From Serratia sp. H1w (GTDB lineage Bacteria > Pseudomonadota > Gammaproteobacteria > Enterobacterales > Enterobacteriaceae), in the NCBI RefSeq assembly GCF_000633355.1, contig NZ_AYMQ01000080.1, positions 1 through 53,940 on the forward strand: DNA of 53,940 nt, given 5' to 3'. Below are positions 1 through 6,293 of this stretch, piece by piece (the stretch's first letter is position 1; every line of letters begins with the position of its first letter). Under the pieces are notes generated by a model. The model saw only the letters and a program-made list of their open reading frames with translations. It searched no databases and had not been told where the DNA came from. The position numbers and the translations under genes are program-made.

Positions 1-2
1 CA

Positions 3-779
3 TTGAATACTTGACCCATTTGCAAACAATATGGAAAATTAACTAAAGATCACGTCCCACCGAAAGGTTCGGTAACAATAACAAAAAGAGAGCAACGGAC
101 TATAAGTGAATCACACCCTGACATTTTTGATAATATCAAAGGGTTACCGACATTTAGAGCTAGTACTTTTAAAACCATATGCCGTGACTGTAATAGTACG
201 CTCCTCAGTCAATTTGATAAAGAGATATGTGCGGTAACAAAATCGATAACATCAAAAGTAAAAGACTATTTCACTTTAGCCAATAAAATATATCCTTATA
301 TTGAAGTCCCTTTTGATTCAAAAAAGTTTACAAGAGGTATGATCGGTCACATATTATCAGCATCTTCAATAAAAGCATGCCTTAGCCCAATTCCAGACAG
401 TCCTTTCTTTTCACCATTACGAGACTATGTTTCAGGGAAAACTGTAACATTCGAAGATACTCATGATATATACTACTGGTTCTACCCTCACACTACTCAT
501 ATCAGTGCTCAAGGTTTAGCATTCTTTAATGAAGGGCATATATGTGAGTGTTCACTACTTCATTTTTTCCCCATCGCATTCCTCATTACCTTGAAGGGGC
601 AAGGAACATTTCCCGCCCACGCACAAAGACTCAAACTTAATGATGAGAAAATTCGTTTTCACATGAGTGTATATAATATTTCTTTCAGTTCATTTCCTTT
701 TGTTGAATTAAAAGGAAATCAAATGCTTGCATTCAACGATGAGTTTACCTGCATTAGTTATCCAATAAAAAATGATTAA
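3..779 (+). pseudogene. HNH-like zinc-binding protein, 5' end outside window, in-frame TGA
   Basis: An open frame runs from the left edge to the TAA at 777-779 and is interrupted by TGA at 12-14. After the stop it reads PICK, then DHVPPK (codons 48-65), then CRDCN (180-194). This layout, CxxC ... DHxPPK ... CxxCN, is that of small treble-clef HNH-type proteins, and the TGA sits exactly where the first Cys of a CPIC pair would be expected. There is no ATG, GTG or TTG between the TGA and the ATG at 339, and starting at 339 would discard the whole zinc module. The remaining ~145 residues are not recognised. I read this as a partial gene carrying a nonsense change, or a gene whose start lies outside the window. 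Sequencing error is possible. Base composition is AT-rich like the neighbouring accessory DNA. Confidence 0.5.
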
Positions 780-965
780 ATGGAACGCTTGTCAGGAACA
801 AACCACATGGCTTAACGACACGTAAAATTTATTAAATCCACATGGCTTCTTAATTCATTTTCAATAGAAATTAACTCAATGAATTACAAAAATCATTGAA
901 GTATCTTTGCGAAAAAGGAATCTCGAATTTTAATCATGACGTTTTAATTACACATTGTATATTAA
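780..965. other. AT-rich intergenic stretch
   Basis: AT-rich DNA between the zinc-protein gene and the MITE. I see no convincing ORF, RNA gene or terminator here. It ends in the TAA at 963-965 that is repeated on the far side of the MITE. The stretch from 1104 to 1256 is likewise empty. Confidence 0.5.
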
Positions 966-1100
966 GAGTCTATCTCAATAGGCGATAAAAACAGCACTCA
1001 GAAAAGTAAATTTTGATGCTCAGAGCCATATAATCCGGCGTTCTGGTTACAACCAGACACCAGTTGGAAGCAGTATTCTATTACCTATTGAGATAGGCTC
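966..1100. mobile_element. 135-bp MITE-like element with 17-bp terminal inverted repeats
   Basis: The left end (966-982) reads GAGTCTATCTCAATAGG. The right end (1084-1100) is its reverse complement with one mismatch (GAGCCTATCTCAATAGG). The trinucleotide TAA lies directly outside both ends (963-965 and 1101-1103), as expected of a 3-bp target duplication. The interior has no coding capacity. It carries a small near-palindrome around CTGGTTACAACCAG. From general knowledge, IS5-family subgroups make 3- to 4-bp duplications and have ends beginning GAG or GG, so a non-autonomous derivative of an IS5-type element is plausible; that assignment is inference. Confidence 0.72.
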
Positions 1101-1256
1101 TAAGTGCTTCAACTTTAAAATGCATAGGTAATCCCTTTAACTTTTCATTTAAAATATTTCAGGGCTGGTTTATTAAATTTTAGCAACCTAAAGGCCAGTT
1201 ACCTTAGAAGCAATTTATTCATGAAGTAATAATCTACATTTTAAAAGCGTAAGTAC

Positions 1257-1709
1257 TCAATTTTTTATTACCTTTGCTCGGCTTACGAGTTTTTTTACTA
1301 ACTCATACCCATTCGGAATATCTTGCTGTAGTGGCTTTGGGATTACATTACATGGCATCTCAAAGTTAATAATCGCTGTATAATTAATTCCTTTAGCTAT
1401 TAAGCAGTTCATGTTATCCTCTGATATAGCCATTGGTATTTCAGTCATTCCTTTTAATTTCATCCAACATATTCTATGCCTACCATCAATAACCTTTATT
1501 TCTTCATTTCCATTTATTTTAATTAGTGGAATATAGAATATATTCAAAGGCTCACCTTTAACAATCCACTCTGACCTGGGTTCATCACTTAGTTCAGATA
1601 TCAACCTATCAACATCATCACTTTTCTGCAAACTGTTATACAGTAAGTTAGTATTTATTAGAACAGTATAATAAGACGATTCGATTTTGTTAGCTAAATA
1701 ATACTTCAT
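1257..1709 (-). CDS. ParB/sulfiredoxin-like domain protein
   Basis: A 150-residue protein with the motif IKVIDGRHRICWMKLKG near its middle, followed by MTEIPMAI. This is the GxxR-H-R box plus 'I-P' strand typical of the ParB N-terminal/sulfiredoxin-like fold, which in different relatives binds nucleotide, cuts DNA or serves in plasmid partition or fertility inhibition. I chose the ATG at 1709 because GGGGT stands 7 nt upstream; a TTG at 1772 would add 21 residues but has no clear ribosome site. No HTH domain is visible, so it is not a complete ParB. It sits alone, transcribed away from the tandem array at 1869. The exact role is unknown; partition or antirestriction-type work for the mobile element is a guess. 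Confidence 0.55.
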   Translation of the reverse strand: MKYYLANKIESSYYTVLINTNLLYNSLQKSDDVDRLISELSDEPRSEWIVKGEPLNIFYIPLIKINGNEEIKVIDGRHRICWMKLKGMTEIPMAISEDNMNCLIAKGINYTAIINFEMPCNVIPKPLQQDIPNGYELVKKLVSRAKVIKN

Positions 1710-1868
1710 ATTTTTACCCCATTTTATAAACTTTATTTTTAACAATTGAAGATTTTTATATTTATCCTTCAATTTACATTTTTATTTATCTATCAATCAT
1801 CTTAGAAAAAATTTAATGTAATACTGGATAGTTTTCACTTTTACATTTTATTGGTTAGCCTCTATGTC

Positions 1869-2038
1869 AGTACTTTCAATAAGTACTCCCAGTGGATTTA
1901 GTCAGTACTGTGCCAGTACTTTCAACAAGTACTATCCCAGTGGATTTAGTCAGTACTGTGCCAGTACTTTCAACAAGTACTATCCCAGTGGATTGAGTCA
2001 GTACTGTGCCAGTACTTTCAGTAAGTACTCCCCAGTAG
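1869..2038. repeat. 48-bp tandem array of AGTACT palindromes (putative iterons)
   Basis: AGTACTTTCA begins at 1869, 1915, 1963 and 2011, giving units of 46, 48 and 48 bp plus a partial fourth. Each unit contains the dyad AGTACTT-(5 nt)-AAGTACT, then a CCCAGTGGATT(T/G)AG segment, then the palindrome CAGTACTG. The first unit lacks two bases after AAGTACT. The open frame through the array only translates the repeat and is not a gene. Regularly spaced palindromic units beside a helicase gene fit binding sites for an initiator, partition protein or regulator. It is not a CRISPR: the units are contiguous with no unique spacers. Confidence 0.75.
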
Positions 2039-2080
2039 ATTCAATACTTGAAATAATTTTAAATGACTTGAAATGCGATC

Positions 2081-2301
2081 TTTGTTTTAGTACATGCTCT
2101 GGCCGCAGGGCAAGTATGTACTAAAACAAAATTGCCGGTGATTTGCCTTAGCAAATCGACGTTTAAAACATTATGTAAGCTTTGAAAACAACTCATCATG
2201 TCGAGTTGCCAAGGCAACCCGCCATATTAAGTTATTTCGCAAAAAACATACGGAAAACACTAAATTCAACTCGCTAAAGCGAGCTAAATTTAGTGTTTTC
2301 C
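2081..2301. other. Cluster of four strong inverted repeats
   Basis: Four dyads lie in 221 bp. (1) 2081-2095 with 2116-2130: perfect 15-bp arms containing TAGTACAT, 20-nt loop. (2) 2140-2157: GATTTGC-CTTA-GCAAATC. (3) 2205-2218: GTTGCC-AA-GGCAAC. (4) 2252-2266 with 2287-2301: perfect 15-bp arms around an inner CTCGCT-AA-AGCGAG (2270-2283), so almost the whole 50 nt folds. The last lies just downstream of the helicase gene (leftward transcription) and could terminate it, but the series is more than one terminator needs. Together with the adjacent tandem array it resembles a replication or single-strand processing region. Confidence 0.6.
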
Positions 2302-2428
2302 TTTGTTTTATTGCTTTCATTTTAAAATAGCTAAGAAATCCCTCTATTATATAGAAGGTTATATTAGTTTTTATGAATACCAGTGCGATTAGAAGCAGAG
2401 ATGCAACCATGTACATAGCTACTTACTT

Positions 2429-3916
2429 TTATTTTCTAATTGGCTCAACTGAAATTTGATTTTTGAATTGGTTAAAGTCTACGTCTTTGTACTCTTTGTT
2501 TTTACGTTGTTTCCCTTCCCATTTGTGGTACTTTATCATACTGTCAGCTTTGTTATTGTTCTTGGTTTTCCAATTGCCAAATCTGTTTTTAAGTTCTTTT
2601 GGGGCGTTAATTCCTGAAGGGCGACCTCCAATTGATTTAGTACTCTTTAAACCTAACTCAATCTTTTCAACTGTTCCTGAAGGTATAGAATATGCTTGAT
2701 CTGAATCATATACATATACTGTGACACGTTCCGCACTACTATAATCACGAATTTTAGAGCGATATACAAATTGGTATAGCGTTTCGGTTTCATATTCTTG
2801 CACCATATCCTCAAGTGTAAAGTCAAATAAATCAGATAAATATGCTTCACTATTAGGATGAGCATTCATTGCTGCTATAAAGACACATACTTTCTTATCT
2901 TTTAAATTATTCATACCGCGTTGATTGGGGGTGATCTTAGTACCACGTAATGTGAATAAACTGCGATCATTTGAAGTCCAAAAGAAATCTATATCTTTTA
3001 ACTCGTTTTCCAGAAATTTCATTACAACTTTAACGTTGCTATCCAATTCATCCACAAGCATTTTTTTAGATAAACCACGATCATATTTGGTTGTATCAAA
3101 AAAGTACTTTACATCAATACGTGAATCATTAGCATTAAACTCTTCTTGTTTATCAAGTTTAAAGTCAATCTTTTCAAATATGTGATTCCAACGCTTATAT
3201 AAAAGTGACTTTTCAAAGTCATTACTCATGTAAGTAATATCAATACCTGCATTAACATATTTGGTTAGATCATACCACCCTGCAATAACTAACTGTTTTA
3301 CTTTACCAGTCAATGAATCACCTAAAAGCACTGCCTGATGATAGAACCTCATCTCACGATAAACCTTGTAAAACCCTTTGGTATCATCTGATAAATTTAT
3401 TTCATTATTGATAGTAACTGACTTATATTTGAAATTTACAGGATCATTTTCATCACCACTTATTTCCACATAATCACTTGAGGTAATGAATATTTTGTTA
3501 TAGATACTCAGTATTTCTTCTTGGTCATCACTACCTATACCACGAACTATCAGACTACAAAACTTGTTACAATCATCAATCCAGATTTTCCAGTCCTTTA
3601 ATAAACAAGGATCTATTCGATAAAACATTTTTTCTGTAATCATTACTATATGGGAAGTTTTTTCAGATAGACTCTTTTTTATACGTGGTAGTAGAGCTTG
3701 ATTTTTAGTAAAATCATCATCTGATGAAACCACTACTTTTACATTATCACAGAACTTTTTGTAATCGGATTTGAATTGATTTATTAACTGTTTGGTAGGC
3801 ATCACTACTAAATGAAAATTACCTAAAGTTTCAATTTCATTTTTTATCTCTGATGTAGCATAAACGCCTTTGCCACTGCCACATTTACTACTCAGATACT
3901 TTAATTTACTACTCAT
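2429..3916 (-). CDS. SF2 helicase-like protein of a mobile element
   Basis: A 495-residue protein. Near the N-terminus SSKCGSGKG (residues ~9-17) is a degenerate Walker A, with Gly where Ser/Thr is usual after GK. WKIWIDDCNKF (~108-118) fits a Walker B/DExx-type box with DD. LYQFVYRSKIRD (~390-401) resembles the Q..R..R motif VI of SF2 helicases, and VTVYVYD follows it. The C-terminal ~80 residues are Lys/Arg/Asn-rich, possibly DNA-binding. The start ATG at 3916 has GGGAG 9 nt upstream. Its gene points at the hairpin cluster and tandem array, so replication of the element is the natural guess. No primase or endonuclease motif is visible. The altered Walker A makes true ATPase activity uncertain. 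Confidence 0.6.
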   Translation of the reverse strand: MSSKLKYLSSKCGSGKGVYATSEIKNEIETLGNFHLVVMPTKQLINQFKSDYKKFCDNVKVVVSSDDDFTKNQALLPRIKKSLSEKTSHIVMITEKMFYRIDPCLLKDWKIWIDDCNKFCSLIVRGIGSDDQEEILSIYNKIFITSSDYVEISGDENDPVNFKYKSVTINNEINLSDDTKGFYKVYREMRFYHQAVLLGDSLTGKVKQLVIAGWYDLTKYVNAGIDITYMSNDFEKSLLYKRWNHIFEKIDFKLDKQEEFNANDSRIDVKYFFDTTKYDRGLSKKMLVDELDSNVKVVMKFLENELKDIDFFWTSNDRSLFTLRGTKITPNQRGMNNLKDKKVCVFIAAMNAHPNSEAYLSDLFDFTLEDMVQEYETETLYQFVYRSKIRDYSSAERVTVYVYDSDQAYSIPSGTVEKIELGLKSTKSIGGRPSGINAPKELKNRFGNWKTKNNNKADSMIKYHKWEGKQRKNKEYKDVDFNQFKNQISVEPIRK

Positions 3917-4852
3917 TTGTAAATACTCCCACTGACAATCAACCCTTACTGTCAGTTTACTTTGTCATATATATAGTCCTCCATAAGGATTAATAGGATT
4001 GTGACGGTTATTATAATTACTACATATCATAGAACATTGTTATAATTTATTAATTTGTGCTGTTGTATATACTTGGGGTTAATTAATACATTTTAAATTC
4101 ATCAACATTGATTTATACACAAAAAATGGGGTTGGTCATCGCATAAAGACAACACATTCTCACTCCAATGAATGTCGACATTATAACACAAAAGTTTTTT
4201 TCGTTTCATTTATTTTCAACAAGCCTGGAAGTCAGGGGCGTTAAAAAATACGTAACATTGCTGGTTGCTGATTTCGTGCATACGATAGAAAACAGCTAAT
4301 TTTCCCGTCAACGTAAATGAAAAAGTATTTTCACTATATAAAGTCTAAATTTCCTTGTTCCATTTTAAGTAGTATTAATAGTCTCATAAGGAAGTACTAA
4401 AATAGGCAATGCATATATTACGAAAAGTAGTTCTCTTTGAGGATACATCGTAGATACTTTTTAAGTTTTGTACATTTACTCTGACAAAGTTAGAAGATAC
4501 ATCTTTAAAAACGCTCTGTAAGCCATTATACGGTTGTTTTTCGAAAGTTTGATGGTATTCACTCTGAAATTCTTAAACCTCATAGTGAGCGTCCTACAAT
4601 AGATTTGTCTCATACCCACAAGCAATCGTGACTAACCAGCCTGCTTTACAAGATTGGCACGAACAAATCCCGCACTCTGTTAGCCACTATTCAGTACTTT
4701 CGTAAGCTCTAACAAGCAGCCAAACCCACAGCAACATAGCCACTGACCTGTGACTTCAGCTCTGTACCGAAATGTGGTACATTTTGTGTGTACTATGCAG
4801 TACTGGTGCAGCTTCATGTCCCGAAAAATGGGAGTACTTTGAGGACGTTTTG
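3917..4852. other. Non-coding AT-rich region with scattered AGTACT sites
   Basis: About 0.9 kb between the helicase gene and the recombinase cassette without a convincing ORF. It holds isolated AGTACT motifs (near 4691, 4790 and 4838; the last reads GGGAGTACTTT) and a perfect dyad TGTACC-(7 nt)-GGTACA near 4766-4784. Leftward promoters for the helicase should lie at its left side, but I cannot place one firmly. Confidence 0.4.
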
Positions 4853-4946
4853 GCTATAATAGAACAACCTCATCTCTAACTACTTGATTAGTAGTTAAAA
4901 GTACTCCCACAGTGGAAATGCACGCTTTCAGTACATTTCAGTTGTG
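4853..4946. repeat. Left arm of perfect 94-bp inverted repeat flanking the recombinase gene
   Basis: The 94 bases 4853-4946 are the exact reverse complement of 6112-6205. Inside the arm lies TAACTACT-TGATT-AGTAGTTA (4877-4897), an 8-bp dyad with 5-nt centre that could be a recombinase core site, followed by AAAAGTACTCCCACAGTGG, which shares the AGTACT(AT)CCCAGTGG core of the tandem array. Directly left of the arm is GGACGTTTTG (4843-4852), similar to GGACTCTTTTG just right of the right arm. Confidence 0.9.
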
Positions 4947-4958
4947 CTCAATCTGCTT

Positions 4959-6092
4959 TTAAAGCAGATTGATGATTTCCTTAAGTTTTCCTAAATCACT
5001 GACTTGCTTACCGTATCGTGAATAGGTAATTCCTGTGTTGGATAAATGACCGAGTAGTGCACCTGCGTACTGTTCAGGAATTCCGGCATTTTTAAAGGTG
5101 GTGGCGGCGTAATGCCGTAATGAATGGAATTCCGGCACATCTAACGCCTTTCTGAACTGACTAAACCAACTGATAAAGTATTGTGAATGCCTTTTTTTAT
5201 TGCGGGTTTCAGGGAAAAGCAATTCTTGTCCTTTTTTACTTTCAAAATAGTTCCAAAAGCCCGCATTTATTAATGAGTCGTGAATTGGAACGAATCTTCT
5301 GCTACTGGGTGTTTTTAGTTGTTGTGATGTGTGAGTATTATCTATCCGAAAACACCATAAACCGTCTATCTGCTGAATATCATCAAGATATAGTTGGCAA
5401 ATTTCATTAGCCCGCAAGCCGCTATAACTACCGATCAATATTACCCAGCGTTTCCAAGCCGCTTCAGCAGTACAAACATCCCTTAGCTTTGCCACTTGGT
5501 CTATGGTGTAGGCATCCCGTTTTTCAGATACTGGAACATTATCTTTGATCGATAATCCTTGAAATGGATTTTTTATTTCAATCTCACTTCGTCTGTTCAT
5601 CCAGAGGAAAAAACCACCAATTTTAGATACGTATTTGTTACGCGTTGGAATCGCTGACGTAAGTTGATCGATGAAGAGTGCTGCCTGCCGCTTACTGAAT
5701 GGATCTTTAGTAAAAGCAAGATATCCCCGAATGTTACTTTCTATCGCTCCTAATTCTTGTACTCGAACTTGGCTTTGCTTAATTTTTAAGTACTGATCAA
5801 GTTCTTGCTCAATGTTGGGTGTTTTGCGGGATGGAGCTTTACTATGAGCCACCTTGGCTTCTAAACCCATCTCTTGCAGTGTTTGTAATGATTCAAGCAG
5901 GGTTAACACTTGCTTTGATGTATCCATCATGAGCGGTGTAAGATTTTCTTGATACTTGGCGATACGTTTTTTCGCTTCAGATTTCGAGCGTGTACGCAAT
6001 GAACGCCGGATCTCTCTACGTTTACCAGATGGAAGAACATTTACTTTTCGGTAATACCAGATGCCATGTCGACTCAGCATAAGAGATGCCAT
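4959..6092 (-). CDS. Tyrosine recombinase/integrase
   Basis: A 377-residue site-specific recombinase. The N-terminal ~45 residues (SRHGIWYYRKVN, KRREIRRSLRT) match the DUF6538-type arm domain of phage-like integrases. A SAM-like core-binding region covers ~95-170. The catalytic domain shows R227 (GSYSGLRANEI), K260, H323 and R326 (FHSLRHYAAT), H349 (LLGH), and a Tyr nucleophile at Y360 (SRYGK; Y357 is the alternative), so the active site looks complete. The ATG at 6092 has AAGGAG 8 nt upstream. A 21-nt dyad at 4950-4970 covers the last codons. It is enclosed by perfect 94-bp inverted repeats, which is odd: attachment sites are usually direct repeats. No tRNA is nearby. Probably the integrase of the accessory element. 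Confidence 0.9.
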   Translation of the reverse strand: MASLMLSRHGIWYYRKVNVLPSGKRREIRRSLRTRSKSEAKKRIAKYQENLTPLMMDTSKQVLTLLESLQTLQEMGLEAKVAHSKAPSRKTPNIEQELDQYLKIKQSQVRVQELGAIESNIRGYLAFTKDPFSKRQAALFIDQLTSAIPTRNKYVSKIGGFFLWMNRRSEIEIKNPFQGLSIKDNVPVSEKRDAYTIDQVAKLRDVCTAEAAWKRWVILIGSYSGLRANEICQLYLDDIQQIDGLWCFRIDNTHTSQQLKTPSSRRFVPIHDSLINAGFWNYFESKKGQELLFPETRNKKRHSQYFISWFSQFRKALDVPEFHSLRHYAATTFKNAGIPEQYAGALLGHLSNTGITYSRYGKQVSDLGKLKEIINLL

Positions 6093-6111
6093 TGAAAGTA
6101 CTCCTTGGTGT

Positions 6112-6205
6112 CACAACTGAAATGTACTGAAAGCGTGCATTTCCACTGTGGGAGTACTTTTAACTACTAATCAAGTAGTTAGAGATGAGGTTGTTCTATT
6201 ATAGC
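6112..6205. repeat. Right arm of perfect 94-bp inverted repeat
   Basis: Exact reverse complement of 4853-4946. The core dyad is TAACTACT-AATCA-AGTAGTTA at 6161-6181. The next base after the arm begins GGACTCTTTTG (6206-6216). The core chromosome, with higher GC and a chemotaxis gene, starts immediately after, so this arm probably marks the element boundary. Confidence 0.9.
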
Positions 6206-6293
6206 GGACTCTTTTGTGATTTCCCGTCCTTTTCATCATTGAACCGCAGCCTGGCCGATAACAGCAACATTTCCAGAATAATCCCCTAAGCAG

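Follow-up and report, generated by a model that had tools for sequence, protein, structure and literature searches.

The stretch of DNA analysed here, 53,940 nucleotides from Serratia sp. H1w (the window), most probably includes the right-hand end of a genomic island that has three att sites, was inserted at the ppa gene by a lambda-type tyrosine integrase and carries a presumably invertible cargo; we assign this reading a probability of about 0.75. The order of such an island would be chromosome junction, integrase module, inverted complete attP, cargo module and chromosome junction (Table 1). The window is the whole of contig C80; the island extends past its left end, and its right end lies inside the window. 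The host island is thus split over at least two contigs, and the stretch of cargo that separates window base 1 from the end of a second contig, C62, is unassembled.

Table 1. Features of the island's right end in the window
Feature	Position	Strand	Basis
Cargo gene, 146 aa, no assigned function	339..779	+	53% homologues in Raoultella and Citrobacter ffs-island loci
Cargo gene, 171 aa, no assigned function	1257..1772	-	40%/33% homologues in E. coli ffs islands L050/L043
48-bp tandem repeat, 3.7 copies, 93% matches, 11 AGTACT sites, iteron-like	1868..2041	.	Repeat and motif scan
Helicase-like cargo gene, 495 aa	2429..3916	-	Pfam hits to DEAD and ResIII, both weak
Cargo arm, left half of central attP	4621..4852	+	Inverted copy of C62 island end beside ppa
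Core of central inverted attP, GCTATAATAG on + strand	4853..4862	-	Junction alignment
Inner integrase arm (outer arm inverted), right half of central inverted attP	4853..4946	+	Inverted-repeat match
Tyrosine integrase gene, 377 aa	4959..6092	-	Pfam PF00589, 1.6e-16
Outer integrase arm (P' arm plus core), 94 bp	6112..6205	-	Perfect inverted repeat with 4853-4946
Core CTATTATAGC at chromosome junction, mcp side; host DNA from 6206	6196..6205	.	Empty sites in relatives

An integrase module at a chromosome junction

As the initial annotation had reported, the two integrase arms are exact reverse complements of each other (94/94 bp; self-BLAST E = 5e-46), and the tyrosine recombinase is indeed the sole gene of note between them. 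Its product belongs to the phage integrase family of Pfam (Phage_integrase), the best-matching sequence among proteins of known structure is lambda integrase (1.9e-5), and it is 50-52% identical to integrases of Phytobacter, E. coli and Limnobaculum. The module is present once in the host genome (6.1 Mb in 240 contigs).

The insertion site is recognised from four relatives (G004, G002, G001 and G031), in which it is empty and reads ..GGCGG CTATTATAGC GGA... The island-free order in these genomes is ppa ..GGAGTGGCGG CTATTATAGC GGA(C/G)TCTTTT.. mcp, where ppa (inorganic pyrophosphatase) and mcp are what we take the neighbouring genes to be from their translations. The empty attB shares its core with the junctions, as is characteristic of tyrosine-integrase genomic islands. 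In the window, the core is bordered by host DNA on its right side and by the outer integrase arm on its left. On contig C62 an island end lies beside ppa and is the reverse complement of 4621-4862; the cargo arm of the window matches G000:C62:54751-54982, reversed, at every one of 232 bp, and the arm is at least 232 bp long, as C62 ends there. From the empty sites we infer that the C62 end and the window are the two ends of one island, the stretch between them being unassembled. Reading from ppa to mcp, there are thus three junctions: ppa-core-cargo arm, cargo arm-core-integrase arm (4621-4946), and integrase arm-core-mcp. Between integrase and cargo, the second of these forms a full attP in inverted orientation. 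The proposal that the module might be the end of a larger integrative element has accordingly held up, with the outer arm stopping at the chromosome junction and the inner arm abutting the cargo of the same element.

Two details of the initial annotation are to be read differently. The flanks of the arms, GGACGTTTTG on the left and GGACTCTTTTG on the right, do exist; they had been taken for a slightly decayed target duplication, which we reject because the right flank is host DNA in the empty sites and the left flank belongs to the cargo arm. The former occurs in the element-free relatives G004, G002, G001 and G031 with one to two base changes, and the latter, the end of the cargo module, recurs inverted beside ppa on contig C62. 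Likewise, an 8-5-8 dyad, TAACTACT-TGATT-AGTAGTTA, is present in each arm as described, but the junctions share CTATTATAGC and not the dyad. The dyad is rejected as a crossover core in favour of CTATTATAGC, which occurs in the empty site and at each of the three junctions.

The core CTATTATAGC is the complement of GCTATAATAG and includes TATAAT, which makes the target of insertion an apparent -10 box of the ppa promoter. The last ~40 bp of the cargo arm, GAAAAATGGGAGTACTTTGAGGACGTTTTGGCTATAATAG, match the sequence upstream of ppa in G003, G005, G006 and G022 at 82-88%. An integrase homologue was absent from G003, G005 and G006 by protein search, and none was found at 1e-50 in G022. Further DNA matches to ppa-like sequence, as matches alone, occur in G191, G262, G329, G388 and G400. 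These similarities suggest that the element supplies a ppa-like promoter half in place of the one it displaces, and such a promoter at the cargo end would keep ppa transcribed after insertion. Other members of the ppa type were found in none of 6 other genomes of the genus by protein, and no other attP-like match was found among 392 family genomes by DNA. In G003, G005 and G006 (L014-L016), an ORF of 197-237 aa takes the place of mcp between fbp and ppa, possibly a trace of past exchange at the site.

Related islands at ffs

A protein search of 295 family genomes, evenly drawn from a larger group, at a cut-off of E ≤ 1e-50 returned integrase homologues in eight other genomes. Seven of them sit at ffs, the gene for 4.5S RNA, and the eighth (G009) is on a contig that begins within the gene. 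These positions bear on the earlier idea of an autonomous IS-like unit moved by its tyrosine recombinase. A gene enclosed by perfect inverted repeats would fit such a unit, but with one copy in the host genome, seven of eight homologues at the same gene, and the module of complete relatives placed at an att site adjoining a cargo module, we regard it as extremely improbable.

In Phytobacter diazotrophicus (G295), the integrase lies at the 3' end of ffs, enclosed by a perfect inverted repeat of 140 bp, and the island is complete at 14.87 kb: ffs junction, integrase, inverted attP, cargo and far junction, the cargo being bounded by perfect 140-bp repeats as well. The entire three-att plan is also present at a Citrobacter werkmanii locus, and a Raoultella ornithinolytica locus has the integrase module and central attP only. 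The integrases of the ffs islands are about 50% identical to that of the window, and the plan is complete in Phytobacter, Citrobacter and E. coli.

The E. coli islands were reached through short matches of ~74% to the window module in 14 of 5,426 genomes, none of which covers 80% of it. At least 80% of the ffs-type integrase module adjoins ffs in 50 of the 5,426 complete E. coli genomes, and ybaA and ffs adjoin each other in island-free genomes (five rows, H140-H144). Thirteen E. coli loci were inspected (L043-L053, L068 and L069). Both cargo arms were located in 10 of them by self-comparison and in L069 by its sites; for L068 they are deduced from the similarity to L050. The annotated E. coli relatives carry a single annotated tyrosine integrase per island, and an IS lies within the integrase in 3 of the 13 loci (L043, L052 and L053). 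In L049 (NZ_CM172715.1), the integrase module is kept at ffs with IS1 in place of the cargo; no far junction was found at this locus, and neither pdeB nor ybaA is annotated between ylaC and the island.

Homologues lacking the inverted repeat (no-IR) were found as well. In the other six ffs homologues of the protein search (L037-L042; 47-48% identical), the gene is not enclosed by a perfect inverted repeat, and the 14-16 kb retrieved contain no second long copy of the core; in L039 a 14-bp repeat of the core lies 4.2 kb off. Two of the six (L029 and L031) have a 36-bp inverted match of 86% that starts before the gene and stops within it. The retrieved stretches of the six contain no match to DUF2188, and two have a distant (28%) serine recombinase. 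For the Limnobaculum homologue (50%), no inner arm was found past the gene, and the contig begins inside the gene. A Serratia quinivorans locus (L064:9890-10657) has an ffs-type integrase cut short near a contig end, with ~205 matched residues, and a variant ffs core, GGCAGGGCCTCCACC. In a protein tree the window integrase joins the no-IR group at 85/90, on long branches, and not the integrases of the ffs islands with inverted repeats (IR-type). Since the long branches leave it unplaced, the inverted attP may have had one or two origins. Outside chromosomes, the plasmid collection gave no DNA match to the window module or the E. coli module, 10 phage records gave distant protein matches (0 covering 80%; the best-covering at 27% identity), and two viral contigs carry distant relatives, in which self-BLAST found no inverted repeat.

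Orientation of the integrase module and the cargo

In each of the 50 E. coli genomes that have 80% or more of the integrase module, the module runs into ffs in one and the same orientation. An inverted module would be expected as a match ending near query base 1543 with ~84% coverage, and no such match was seen (0/50). These relatives give no support to the suggestion of a self-inverting switch flipping its own integrase; the part that is flipped is the cargo. The form of the switch that we considered has the observed orientation as off and the inverted one as on and transient. A module flanked by inverted att sites with homogenised arms is in line with such a switch, yet besides the 0/50 count, the arms of the ffs islands extend into the first codons of the integrase, and both orientations would therefore share the proximal promoter region. 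We consider a switch of this kind quite unlikely.

Cargo orientation was scored with a probe running from ybaA through DUF2188 and the serine-recombinase end. The DUF2188/serine-recombinase end is beside ybaA in 39 E. coli genomes and away from ybaA in 16, counts that come from genomes that are not independent samples. In all 16 flipped cargos, the strand of the probe is opposite to that of the integrase hit, and four of them (L046, L048, L068 and L069) were also inspected by annotation. The clearest pair is L044 and L069, near-identical islands in which a 7,181-bp cargo is inverted at 99.7% identity with the breakpoints within the arms. A second inverted pair with a different cargo, L045 and L048, matches over 6,795 and 3,385 bp at 99.6-99.8%, and L044 and L046 have an inverted match over 6,257 bp at 98.4%. 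With two cargo types each found in both orientations, at least two inversions must have taken place. The cargo of the E. coli ffs relatives is thus an invertible segment; it is in these relatives that inversion is seen, the cargo of the window island being unassembled.

What inverts the cargo may be considered in three ways. We favour the island's own integrase, which would most likely recombine the central attP with the far junction, perhaps aided by the homology of the arms. This is the simplest choice, as the sites that lie inverted are att sites of that same integrase. One observation sits oddly with this: were the integrase to act freely on inverted att sites, integrase modules would also be expected to invert, and 0/50 have done so.

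A second candidate is a small serine recombinase whose gene lies at one end of the ffs cargos; it could invert the cargo as in the Mu G and P1 C segments. It has a Resolvase domain (2.2e-23; source L044), lies near one cargo arm and is conserved in the IR-type loci: 9 of 10 others searched encode a protein 81-98.6% identical over at least 209 aa, and in the tenth, L060, a 98% match over 100 aa is cut at the locus end. However, the genome that hosts the window has no close homologue (best 33%, contig C177), yet its cargo end is an inverted repeat too, and no crossover site for a serine recombinase was identified. We regard this candidate as unlikely.

Third, the cargo arms might simply recombine by homology, making inversion passive and the second attP a functionless relic. 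The cargo arms are 138-146 bp long, repeats of this length suffice for RecA recombination, and the inversion breakpoints fall inside them. Against this, the plan is common to integrases only ~50% identical at two target sites, and all three cores match the local target, whereas a relic would be expected to decay. Passive recombination thus seems possible, though we doubt it, and inversion by the integrase remains our preferred reading.

Concerted evolution of the arms

The perfect identity of the integrase arms had been ascribed to recent duplication or ongoing recombination, and it is the latter that is borne out, since the integrase arms evolve in concert. Sixteen ffs islands in which both integrase arms are present were examined over 139 of the 143 columns. 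Of these columns, 29 are polymorphic among the outer arms, which form 9 haplotypes; in 15 of the 16 islands no compared column differs between an inner arm and its outer partner, and 457 of 464 polymorphic cells are concordant. The exception, the Citrobacter locus L061, has an integrase module recombinant between two lineages, its first ~800 bp being of the L046/L047 type and the remainder, with the inner arm, nearest the L044/L051 type. In L043 the integrase arms have one mismatch in a longer match of 165 bp. Mismatched integrase arms thus arise but are rare. The cargo arms are less strictly matched: in ten E. coli islands, the initial 120 bp agree at 95.8-100% within each island.

Given that site-specific inversion by itself swaps arms but does not equalise them, either conversion between copies or a replicative step would be needed. 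The identity would, in our reading, be maintained by gene conversion between the inverted copies ~1.1 kb apart. The replicative route has the inverted attPs as a replication device: in the excised two-module circle, inversion by the integrase during replication would convert theta forks to double rolling-circle replication, giving an amplified circle with identical arms and cargo in either orientation, a bacterial counterpart of the 2-micron plasmid, with AGTACT and the 48-bp array (see below) as sites of replication or copy control. This idea, which fits the two inverted sites but is drawn from analogy, is distinctly improbable in our estimate.

AGTACT motifs and cargo genes

The hexamer AGTACT is strongly concentrated in the island. 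Window positions 1-6205 contain 23 copies, a single tandem array accounting for 11, against a mean of 1.8 and a maximum of 6 in 500 first-order simulations, and positions 6206-53940 contain 1 copy. Seven ffs islands have 17-33 copies versus 1.7-3.3 simulated (200 simulations each). The regions of six no-IR homologues have 0-2 copies per 5.7-8 kb, and the Limnobaculum stretch has 4 in 15 kb. Both central attPs are dense in the motif, with 4 in 326 bp and 5 in 259 bp, densities reached in 0 of 2000 simulations. In the Phytobacter island, a 5.2-kb gap in the motif spans most of a large AEP-TOTE/reverse-transcriptase gene. AGTACT may be an arm site of the integrase, a dispersed operator or a set of replication iterons.

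Three window cargo genes were tested, and each has homologues in ffs-island loci; for the helicase-like protein these are 28-29% identical and occur in Phytobacter, Raoultella and two E. coli islands. PADLOC models were matched by 5 of 10 cargo proteins tested (E ≤ 0.001), the clear matches being to PDC-M45C and methyl-directed restriction enzymes and two others, including the window helicase, being weak. The Phytobacter cargo encodes a CI/S24-type repressor in addition to the AEP-TOTE/RT gene; the latter is a 1,789-aa ORF (L035:16984 onward, read across L035 and L054) with TOTE primase and reverse transcriptase domains in its first 672 residues. DUF2188 is absent from the genome that hosts the window. 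Within the window cargo, 144 bp (962-1105) are 98% identical to G000:C1:5679-5822, a small contig.

Comparison with known systems

The second attP, inverted, intact and homogenised, recurs with integrases ~50% identical to each other and at two unrelated target sites. Its retention in such divergent elements suggests a function in cargo inversion, replication or copy control. As follows from the integrated map, the excised circle would carry two inverted attP sites separating integrase from cargo, and excision would join the two outer junctions. Such a structure may explain short-read contigs that end at these islands, and an integrase in perfect inverted repeats ending in the target core provides a marker for finding more of them. 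Defence-like genes are found in some ffs islands, and their expression could depend on which way round they lie.

The usual description of an integrative element has two junctions and a single attP. Like other islands of lambda-type tyrosine integrases, the one described here has one integrase, an attP with repeated arm motifs, site-specific insertion at a core that the empty site shares, and variable cargo; unlike them, it has a second complete attP inverted between integrase and cargo, and hence three att sites and an invertible half. The Mu G and P1 C systems are invertible segments in inverted repeats with a small serine recombinase nearby. They resemble the ffs islands in having an inverted-repeat segment found in both orientations near such a gene. 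In contrast, the repeats here end in the att core of an integrase, and the flipped segment is the whole cargo.

In the open-licence literature we found no description of islands that carry an inverted attP internally, nor of this type of island at ffs or ppa; the accessible part of one further report (PMC5001619) concerns other elements. Strand-biased circularizing integrative elements are, as far as the accessible part of their description goes, defined by a requirement for intA, tfp, intB and srap at one end (PMC10214605). They too are gammaproteobacterial integrative elements moved by tyrosine recombinases (PMC10214605), whereas the window has one integrase gene at its junction and no intA-tfp-intB operon there, the other end of the island being unassembled. 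GInts, in the part of the source consulted, have ginABCD with three integrases and direct imperfect repeats as flanks (PMC5385486). The likeness is an integrase end plus variable cargo (PMC5385486); the difference is one integrase, without a ginABCD set, at the window junction, and one annotated per E. coli island, a comparison likewise made with the window island's other end unassembled. The yeast 2-micron plasmid encodes Flp and carries inverted FRT repeats, as outlined in the accessible portion of PMC3147054. Although our island integrates in the chromosome, its circle, deduced from the integrated map, would resemble the plasmid, as there portrayed, in that two inverted recombinase sites would split it into two modules; inversion isomers exist in the plasmid as in the ffs islands.
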